Of a stretch of 64,000 nt of DNA, positions 21,911 to 24,513 are shown in pieces. Location of the stretch: contig CAJTFG010000002.1 of assembly GCA_910575705.1 (NCBI GenBank), positions 248,001 through 312,000 of the forward strand, given 5' to 3'. Numbering within the stretch: position 1 is the stretch's first letter; each line of letters starts with the position of its first letter. Origin of the DNA: Erysipelotrichales bacterium. GTDB taxonomy: Bacteria; Bacillota_I; Bacilli_A; Erysipelotrichales; Erysipelotrichaceae. The notes beneath the pieces were generated by a model. The model did not search any database. It was not told the origin of the DNA and saw only the letters and a program-made list of their open reading frames with translations. The position numbers were made by a program, and so were the translations under genes.

Positions 21911-23050
21911 ATGGTTTATCTGGATTATGCTTCTACGACCCCGATTGGCAAGGATGTTTTGCATGCGTATGAGAAATTGCTGGAAACATCATTTGCCAAT
22001 TGTGACTCACTGCATGATTTAGGTAGGGAAAATGCAAAGCTGATGGAACAGAGCCGTGCAAATATTGCACAGCTTTTGCATGTCAGTCCGGATGAGATAT
22101 TGTTTATGGCAGGAGCGAGCGAAGCGAATAATTATGCGGTCAAGGCGTTTGCTCTTCAAAATCAGCGGCGCGGGAAGCATATTATCGCCAGTTGTGTGGA
22201 ACATTCCAGCGTGGCACACTCGCTACAGCAGCTAGAAGAGCTCTTCGACTTTGAAATCACATATCTTCCGGTGTATGAGGATGGTGCTGTCTGCCTTGAT
22301 GATGTGAAAAGATACTTGCGAAAGGATACGATCCTTGTGACGTGCATGGCAGTCAATAATGAAACCGGCGCCATTCAGCCCATCTATGAGATCGCCGCTT
22401 ATGTACATGCGCATTCACGAGCTGTCGTGCATAGTGATTGTGTGCAAGCTTTCGGGAAGATTCCCGTGGAGATAAACAAGCTGGATATGGCGACAGTTTC
22501 CGCTCATAAGATATACGGATTGAAGGGAAGCGGTTTTTTGTATAAGAAGAAACATATCGACCTTCTTTCTTGGATCAGTGCCGGACAACAGGAACAGGGG
22601 CTTCGCGGCGGTACCAGCAATTCCGCTGTGAATATCGTATTGGCCAAAACCGTTCGTTTGGCATTGGAAAATCAGCACTTAGCATATCAGCATGTGAAAC
22701 AGCTGAATGACTATCTACGGCAGGAGCTCGCTGCCGAGGATGTGATGATAAACAGTCCGAAAAATGCATCTCCTTTTATTTTGAATATATCCTGCCTGCG
22801 AGTGGGAAGTGAGATCGCTTTGAATGCTTTAAATGCACGAGGGTTTGCTGTGAGTGCGAAAAGTACATGTGCCACAAAAAGTAAGGAGTTTTCCCATGTA
22901 TTGATGAAGATGGGACTGGGAGAGCAGCGCGCTACCCATGCCATCCGCATATCTTTATCACATTTGACGACAATAGAAGAAGCAGTGGCTTTTGCCTCTG
23001 CATTGAAGGAGATTATAAAAAGTTATGGAACCGATGAATATCATATATGA
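21911..23050 (+). CDS. NifS/IscS-like cysteine desulfurase (NifZ type)
   Basis: PLP enzyme that releases sulfur from cysteine, here probably for ThiI-dependent 4-thiouridine and thiamin synthesis. The 379-residue protein has YLDYASTTP, GASEANNYAVKAF, the PLP lysine K200 in SAHKIYGLKGSG, RGGTSN and a loop cysteine at about residue 320 (KSTCATKS). It starts one base after ezrA stops and its end overlaps thiI by 26 bases. Bacillus NifZ in the same position is dedicated to ThiI. Confidence 0.93.
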   Translation: MVYLDYASTTPIGKDVLHAYEKLLETSFANCDSLHDLGRENAKLMEQSRANIAQLLHVSPDEILFMAGASEANNYAVKAFALQNQRRGKHIIASCVEHSSVAHSLQQLEELFDFEITYLPVYEDGAVCLDDVKRYLRKDTILVTCMAVNNETGAIQPIYEIAAYVHAHSRAVVHSDCVQAFGKIPVEINKLDMATVSAHKIYGLKGSGFLYKKKHIDLLSWISAGQQEQGLRGGTSNSAVNIVLAKTVRLALENQHLAYQHVKQLNDYLRQELAAEDVMINSPKNASPFILNISCLRVGSEIALNALNARGFAVSAKSTCATKSKEFSHVLMKMGLGEQRATHAIRISLSHLTTIEEAVAFASALKEIIKSYGTDEYHI

Positions 23051-24227
23051 TCATATCCTTGTACGGTATGGTGAACTATCCACAAAAGGAAAAAATAAAA
23101 AAGATTTTATCAAGCGCCTGCAGCACAATGTACGCAATGCTCTTAAAACATTTGATAAGCTGGAGTATAAAGCGACGCATGATCGTCTGTACATCCTGTT
23201 GAACGGCGAAGACGTCCATGCGATCAAAGATGTACTGCAGCATGTATTCGGCATCAGTTCTTTTTCTTTTGCCGTTAAGATTCCCAGTGAAATCGAAGAG
23301 ATGAAAAAAACAGCGCTGCATATCGCAGAGGCGTTTCAAGGTACCACATTTAAAATAGAAGCACGTAGAAGCGATAAGCAGTTTCCGATGATCTCGGATA
23401 AGATCAATCGGGCGATCGCAACGAATATTTTAAAGAAAACATCTTTGAAGGTAGATGTAAAACATCCCGATCTGCGTATTCAGGTAGAAGTCCATACGTT
23501 TGATACGTATATGATGACAAACAAGATCATCGGTGCCGGAGGATACCCGGTAGGAGTAGGAGGAAAGGCATTGGTGATGCTTTCAGGAGGTATCGACTCA
23601 CCAGTCGCTTCCTATTTGACCATGAAGCGCGGCGTAGCTATAGAATGCATTCATTATGCTTCTCCTCCGTATACATCCAATGCGGCTTTGGAAAAAGTAC
23701 TGGATCTAGCGCGTTCTGTTTCTCGTTACCAAGGTCATATCCGCGTACATATCGTGCCTTTTACCGATATGCAACTGGCCATTTATCAGAATTGTGATGA
23801 ATCCTATGCCATTACGATCATGCGACGCATGATGTATCGCATTGCCGAGCAGATCTGTGAAAAACAAAGATGCCTTGCGATCGTTAACGGAGAAAGTATC
23901 GGTCAGGTCGCTTCTCAGACGTTGGAAAGCATGCAGGTGATCAATCAGGTCACGCAAATGCCGGTGATCCGTCCGGTTGTCGCAATGGATAAATTGGAGA
24001 TCATTGCCATTGCCAATAAAATACATACGTATGATATTTCCATACAGCCATTTGAAGACTGCTGCACGATTTTTACACCGAAGAATCCGGTCACGAAGCC
24101 TACTTTGCGCAAAGCGGAAAAAATGGAAGCGCGTTTTGATTATGGATCATTGCTGAAAGAAGCTGTTGAAAAAACAGAATTTATCGATATCTACCCGGAG
24201 AGCAAGAAAAATAGCGATTTATTTTAG
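23025..24227 (+). CDS. thiI: tRNA 4-thiouridine synthase ThiI
   Basis: Adenylates U8 of tRNA and inserts sulfur supplied by the upstream desulfurase; may also feed thiamin synthesis. The 400-residue protein has an N-terminal ferredoxin-like domain (DHILVRYGELSTKGKN), a THUMP domain, and a PP-loop LSGGIDSPVASYL around 186-198. There is no C-terminal rhodanese domain, as usual in Firmicutes. The first ATG is inside the preceding gene; ATG 23034 is an equally possible start. Confidence 0.95.
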   Translation: MEPMNIIYDHILVRYGELSTKGKNKKDFIKRLQHNVRNALKTFDKLEYKATHDRLYILLNGEDVHAIKDVLQHVFGISSFSFAVKIPSEIEEMKKTALHIAEAFQGTTFKIEARRSDKQFPMISDKINRAIATNILKKTSLKVDVKHPDLRIQVEVHTFDTYMMTNKIIGAGGYPVGVGGKALVMLSGGIDSPVASYLTMKRGVAIECIHYASPPYTSNAALEKVLDLARSVSRYQGHIRVHIVPFTDMQLAIYQNCDESYAITIMRRMMYRIAEQICEKQRCLAIVNGESIGQVASQTLESMQVINQVTQMPVIRPVVAMDKLEIIAIANKIHTYDISIQPFEDCCTIFTPKNPVTKPTLRKAEKMEARFDYGSLLKEAVEKTEFIDIYPESKKNSDLF

Positions 24228-24255
24228 TATAAAGAAATACGGCTCACCCATACTA
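24227..24255 (+). promoter_or_regulatory. Candidate sigma-G-type promoter before the small protein gene
   Basis: GTATA (24227-24231), 17 bases, CATACTA (24249-24255), the same element and spacing as at 16099-16127. It abuts the thiI stop codon. CTCACC (24243-24248) and GGTGAG (24263-24268) also form an inverted repeat covering the ribosome binding site. The predicted leader is only about 10 bases. Confidence 0.45.
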
Positions 24256-24272
24256 TTATCGAGGTGAGTAAA

Positions 24273-24476
24273 ATGGAAAGAAAAAAACAGTACAATGAAA
24301 AGCAGGTACAGGAAGATCTGTATCAGTACGAGATGGGTATTGAATTAGGTGCTGACATTGAAGCGGAAAAACGCAATCATGAGCGTGAATACGATAAGGA
24401 ACATTCTTCTCAGGATTTTAAAAACAACTTTCATCAGCAAAATCAGAGAAACAGACAGCAGAACAACCATCGTTAA
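24273..24476 (+). CDS. Small hydrophilic protein with an alpha/beta-SASP-like protease motif
   Basis: The 67-residue protein starts behind GAGGTGAG. Its centre reads YEMGIELGAD, close to the E-(F/L)-G-(V/I)-x-L-G-A-D block that marks the germination-protease cleavage site in alpha/beta-type small acid-soluble spore proteins. The second SASP block (NGSVGGEMVKR type) is missing, and the tail is rich in Gln, Asn, His and Arg. In Bacillus, sspA lies next to thiI, as this gene does. I infer a divergent spore protein; no function is proven. A terminator follows. Confidence 0.75.
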   Translation: MERKKQYNEKQVQEDLYQYEMGIELGADIEAEKRNHEREYDKEHSSQDFKNNFHQQNQRNRQQNNHR

Positions 24477-24483
24477 TGAAGAA

Positions 24484-24513
24484 AAAGAACCTTTGCGAAA
24501 GAGGTTCTTTTCT
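24484..24513 (+). terminator. Intrinsic terminator after the small protein gene
   Basis: AAAGAACCT/AGGTTCTTT, 9-bp stem, 9-base loop, T-rich tail. Confidence 0.88.

Follow-up and report, generated by a model that had tools for sequence, protein, structure and literature searches.

The window, by which we mean the whole stretch of 64,000 nucleotides that was analysed, carries a small gene, P0001, in the space behind thiI, with a promoter-like box and a ribosome-binding site in front of it. The features are as follows.

21911 to 23050 (+), nifZ/iscS-type cysteine desulfurase (PF00266), conserved second neighbour
23025 to 24227 (+), thiI, tRNA 4-thiouridine synthase (TIGR00342, 406 bits; PF02568), upstream neighbour, linked in relatives as well
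24227 to 24231 (+), GTATA, the -35-like element of a sigG-type promoter; exact match, overlapping the thiI stop codon
24249 to 24255 (+), CATACTA, -10-like element; exact match, spaced 17 nt from GTATA
24261 to 24267 (+), GAGGTGA ribosome-binding site, found in 25 of 25 homologous loci
24273 to 24476 (+), P0001, SASP-like small gene of 67 aa plus stop (coding 24273 to 24473, ATG start at 24273)
24327 to 24356 (+), codons of YEMGIELGAD, the conserved core at residues 19 to 28 (family alignment; hhalign to canonical SASP)
24405 to 24473 (+), Asn/Gln-rich tail, of varying length among homologues
24483 to 24511 (+), hairpin resembling an intrinsic terminator, 3' of P0001

An earlier note on this DNA had described a thiI-linked gene for a divergent spore protein, and all that it read from the letters is found where it said. 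P0001 lies directly 3' of thiI on the same strand, with its ATG 45 nt beyond the thiI end, YEMGIELGAD is present in the 67-residue product, the Gln/Asn-rich tail is confirmed (N+Q make up 27% of the whole protein), and GTATA-17-CATACTA stands upstream exactly as claimed. The terminator-like hairpin makes the gene look monocistronic. In library searches no Pfam or NCBIfam family recognises the protein. A nifZ/iscS-type gene adjoins the slot in many relatives, and also in some loci of the sister family.

The genome that P0001 comes from (1.85 Mb, 100% complete) has the sporulation genes that the earlier note proposed to look for. A gpr gene lies at C5:35484-36119 (minus strand) and matches PF03418 with 204 bits and TIGR01441 with 250 bits (cut-off 120); a sigG-like gene (350 bits) lies at C2:159102, adjoining a smaller ORF for a sigma factor, and there is a sigF-like gene as well. 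A profile search of the same genome gave no match to PF00269, the alpha/beta SASP family. Aligned to 1c8b, the spore protease of B. megaterium, the Gpr of this genome keeps TSDALGP and VDALA, two stretches that we take to hold the two essential aspartates of the enzyme, and lacks about 50 residues. In Gpr of P0001's own family, the Erysipelotrichaceae, the profile match stops near 240 and restarts near 300, whereas in most sister-family enzymes it runs through 338; the absent stretch of about 50 residues (profile 240 to 300) is found in the sister-family and Bacillus enzymes alike. The own-family Gpr and its substrate may have changed together.

The presence of P0001-type genes follows that of gpr. 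BLAST with P0001 found 16 homologues among 96 own-family genomes, all of them among the 26 that carry gpr. Ten gpr-bearing genomes were missed by this search, and in nine of these the slot behind thiI holds a diverged member, a small ORF with the same core, ribosome-binding site and box as P0001; the tenth (G020) has other DNA there. Two more gpr-bearing genomes, of genus g21, also carry the slot gene. The gene thus occupies the slot in 27 of 28 gpr-bearing genomes against 0 of 25 without gpr (Fisher p 3e-14), where the count of 27 includes G049, in which the gene adjoins rlmA and ffh and thiI was not seen in the stretch that was fetched. The 25 genomes without gpr have rlmA, ffh or unrelated DNA behind thiI.

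The same pattern is seen across the order in a sample of 295 genomes, of which 69 carry gpr (39 own family, 30 sister family). A core profile of 38 columns matched 32 of the 295, all of them own-family and all with gpr, and none of the 226 genomes without gpr; the Fisher p of 7e-24 for this co-occurrence ignores kinship. Eight of the 32 matched genomes stood outside the building of the profile. The members L076, L141 and L144 of genus g21 were excluded from it; in these the register of the site (TELAFEYE[LM]G) differs slightly. Seven own-family genomes with gpr have no profile match, three of them incomplete and four of genus g21, and three of the latter carry a diverged slot gene. On a tree of ThiI, presence of the gene is clustered, and the label requires four changes, of which at least three fall on branches with good support. 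The number of independent changes behind the link to gpr is therefore small. The association is real, yet it is not 50 independent events. The bearers with a species name are Longicatena caecimuris, Amedibacillus dolichus, Merdibacter massiliensis, Dielma fastidiosa and Traorella massiliensis. They come from a scan of 84,980 species, limited to relatives that have two short peptide patterns in common. It returned records titled Erysipelotrichaceae, Erysipelotrichales or genera that we placed there, together with 'Bacterium c-19' and a bin of an uncultured 'Eubacterium'.

This distribution bears out the claim that the gene is spore-linked, as P0001-type genes are restricted to genomes with gpr. 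It also speaks against reading P0001 as a non-spore protein co-expressed with thiI, such as a small partner in tRNA thiolation, or as a spurious ORF. Such readings would fit the shared strand and the 45 nt distance, but the protein is conserved in 32 genomes with a conserved box of its own, and it is absent behind thiI in the 25 genomes that retain thiI and have no gpr; we regard them as very improbable. On the grounds of conservation we reject both joint vegetative expression with thiI and a spurious ORF.

The sister family shows what else can occupy this locus. In the order sample a canonical SASP scored above the cut-off in 33 sister-family genomes and in one own-family genome, so that the own family, with its SASP-like gene, and the sister family, with its canonical SASP, are complementary. 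The single own-family case (G027; locus L018, contig C169) is a lone SASP of clostridial type on a locus of 1837 bases in a genome that is 83% complete, and is a probable contamination. In almost every sister-family SASP locus that was examined, thiI lies immediately 5' of the SASP gene, with nifZ sometimes visible before it; L114, a short locus only, is the exception. Several of the sister-family loci L109 to L119 hold canonical SASP genes in tandem pairs behind thiI. The earlier suggestion that P0001 sits at the sspA locus is thus upheld by the sister family, whose thiI-linked slot holds canonical sspA. In Bacillus, sspA lies behind nifZ-thiI as well.

The box upstream of P0001 is also shared, and the claim of a sigma-G type promoter gains from this. 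Over 25 homologous loci the best box within 80 nt upstream averages 0.8 mismatches, whereas shuffled sequence gives 3.8 and stretches drawn at random from these loci give 4.0. Promoters of the own family have the form GNATA-17/18-CATACTA-like followed by GAGGTGA, and have spacers that are mutually unrelated; those of sister-family sspA read GTATA-17-CAAAATA, CAAGATA or CAAACTA, then GGAGGTGA. The box of Amedibacillus dolichus carries the sister-family -10 CAAAATA. Genome-wide in P0001's genome the exact box is unenriched, with 9 matches against 16 for a reversed control, although 8 of the 9 sites stand close 5' of an ORF whose start has a plausible ribosome-binding site. The exact box alone is not rare in the genome, and it is therefore its conservation that counts as evidence. 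At the level of sequence the element reads as a conserved sigma-G promoter, a feature expected of an alpha/beta-type SASP.

One exact box precedes a spoVT-like gene, and spoVT is a sigma-G gene in B. subtilis. More widely, exact GNATA-N17-CATACTA boxes at L120, L121, L122, L123, L126 and L128 of this genome (G000) mark candidate sigma-G genes: a YjzC-like gene, the spoVT-like gene, one with weak similarity to Mn-catalase, a small lipoprotein, a BFD-like [2Fe-2S] protein and a 58-aa membrane protein. The end of the -10 box at P0001 is only 17 nt from the ATG (24249-24273), so that, if transcription began at the usual point, the ribosome-binding site would stand at the extreme 5' end of the mRNA. 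This distance is 15 to 20 nt in all 25 own-family loci, against 22 to 23 nt in the sister family.

Looking at the protein, the similarity to SASPs is confined to the core. An HMM search against the SASP families, a check that the earlier note had proposed, gave no match for P0001, which on this result is not a member of PF00269; nor did any of 25 homologues searched singly match PF00269. On the core of the slot gene of G065 the Pfam SASP model reaches 14.5 bits, which is sub-threshold. Comparison of profiles with hhalign sets DLYQYEMGIELGADIE on DQMKYEIANEFGVNLG, the Gpr site of SASPs, over 18 columns with a score of 21.4 and a probability of 57.5%. With 200 and 300 column shuffles none reaches the real score, and the diverged members alone give a probability of 75.6% against SASP. 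The likeness to the SASP motif that the earlier note described stands, while its register does not: ELGAD had been placed on NLGAD, and this is shifted, since the profiles set YEMGIELG on KYEIANEFG, with the site a few residues earlier. YEM[GA]xE-LG then corresponds to YEIANE-FG of canonical SASPs, and the proposed Gpr cut in P0001 would fall after the second Glu, YEMGIE-LGAD. The sequence cut by Gpr is given as 'EIA' in PMC8452069.

A further measure of the core is PROSITE PS00304, the Gpr signature, which we take to be K-x-E-[LIV]-A-x-[DE]-[LIVMF]-G-[LIVMF]. P0001 agrees with 4 of the 8 fixed positions of this pattern, and L074 (KYELAYELGA) with 7. One could argue from these values that a forespore protein under sigma-G but unrelated to SASPs filled the slot after sspA was lost, that the likeness of the core is convergent or due to chance, and that the protein may bind or regulate Gpr or have some other task in the spore. 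The profile similarity covers only 18 columns at 57% probability, P0001 fits half of the signature, and nothing is similar outside the core. Against this, shuffled columns never match the score, the most divergent members are the more SASP-like ones, and the promoter layout is common to sister-family sspA. We judge this explanation improbable.

Past the core there is no conservation across members. The second SASP block is missing, as the earlier note had claimed: the GSVGGEITKRLV-type block, almost invariant in sister-family SASPs and in SspC, is not in P0001, and in the alignment of homologues the VGG/KR DNA-binding block is absent from all members. P0001 might nevertheless be a true alpha/beta-type SASP, whose second half has diverged too far to be recognised, which coats spore DNA and is removed by Gpr. 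The locus, promoter type and protease site are as in sspA, and AlphaFold gives P0001 a single long helix (residues 9 to 66, mean pLDDT 72), a prediction of low information; SASPs become helical only when bound to DNA. The loss of the block from every member and the lack of conservation past the core, where many tails are repetitive Asn/Gln, count against such a role and make it unlikely. A DNA-coating function of P0001 is possible, but its known basis is lost.

The loss of the DNA-binding block together with an Asn/Gln tail that was usually gained makes storage the most likely function, as in gamma-type SASPs. We consider it likely that P0001 occupies the sspA locus as the counterpart of sspA in the Erysipelotrichaceae, and is a sigma-G forespore protein that would be cut by Gpr and serve mainly as a degradable store of amino acids. 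Its descent is best read as derivation from, or replacement of, sspA. The locus, the conserved box, the co-occurrence with gpr, the similarity of the core and the lack of canonical SASPs are all seen in sequence, and we infer from them transcription by sigma-G, abundance in the spore, cleavage by Gpr and a storage role. In this model sigma-G would transcribe the gene in the forespore late in sporulation and the protein would accumulate in the spore core. During germination Gpr would then make a single cut at the Y-E-M-G-I-E / L-G core, after which the protein would be broken down to amino acids. The earlier reading of P0001 as a divergent SASP-related spore protein is thus supported by the locus, the conservation of the box, the link to gpr and the similarity of the site.

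More tentatively, the Erysipelotrichaceae may have dropped DNA-coating alpha/beta SASPs from their spores altogether, with the former sspA locus turned over to an Asn/Gln-rich storage protein degraded by Gpr; Gpr would then be kept for nutrition and not for uncovering DNA, and its shortened C-terminal part may have changed along with the substrate. If the DNA-coating SASPs were indeed given up, the spore DNA would need another protection, and the question is raised whether endospores are possible without them.

Comparison with known systems helps to place the family. With the alpha/beta SASPs (SspA-D, SspF; PF00269) it shares the locus behind nifZ-thiI that sister-family sspA occupies, a promoter layout of GTATA-17-CA...TA, a putative protease-site core of E-x-[AG]-x-E-[LF]-G and the limitation to genomes with gpr. 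It differs in having neither a PF00269 match nor the GxVGGxxxKR DNA-binding block, in a core of YEM[GA]xELGAD rather than KYEIAxEFGV, and in the Asn/Gln-rich tail of most members. Gamma SASPs (SspE) resemble it in being small with a Gpr-like site and, to an extent that varies among members, in being Asn/Gln-rich and of low complexity, and P0001-type proteins are probably amino-acid stores too. However, no Pfam or NCBIfam gamma model matches them, most members have one core site, ELGAD is conserved after it, and the gene lies at the sspA locus and not at that of sspE. A precedent for a gpr site without the DNA-binding signature is clostridial Ssp4, which keeps the gpr domain and has no conserved DNA-binding signature (PMC5376575), though Ssp4 matches PF00269 and P0001 does not.

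All Erysipelotrichales have been described as being without essentially all SASPs, and fragile spores were proposed (PMC10868615, 2024); one Bacillus species encodes no SASP whatever (PMC3533761). Our literature search, in which few subscription papers were covered, found no paper describing a P0001-type gene. Given that the sister family has ordinary SASPs, the order-wide statement of PMC10868615 needs correcting. A SASP-less view of the order also leaves a conserved germination protease without a substrate. The P0001-type gene is a specific candidate, and going by its sequence features its product is probably the missing Gpr substrate of spores that were thought to have none. This would explain the retention of gpr, and the gene would be a marker of sporulation ability in common gut bacteria.

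The N+Q content of slot genes ranges from 10 to 49%. Two members, L007 and L008, stand at 10%, and the storage role is weakened for these by their few Asn and Gln. At the other end, a second ORF of 70 aa with 61% Asn+Gln lies right behind the slot gene of G052 (L067:2880-3092, plus strand), and its two repeats NESANEFNQ / NEFANDFNQ are like the protease sites of gamma SASPs (SspE). In G078 (L074:633-1286, minus strand) the slot gene is enlarged to about 218 aa by Asn/Gln/Arg-rich repeats; these contain SEFSQEN units, which look like several added protease sites. Neither the second ORF of L067 nor the L074 product matches a gamma-SASP or other Pfam model, while their NEFANDF and SEFSQEN repeats recall the EFASE sites of SspE. 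The slot genes of G207 and G209 are likewise enlarged, with open frames of 169 to 230 aa.
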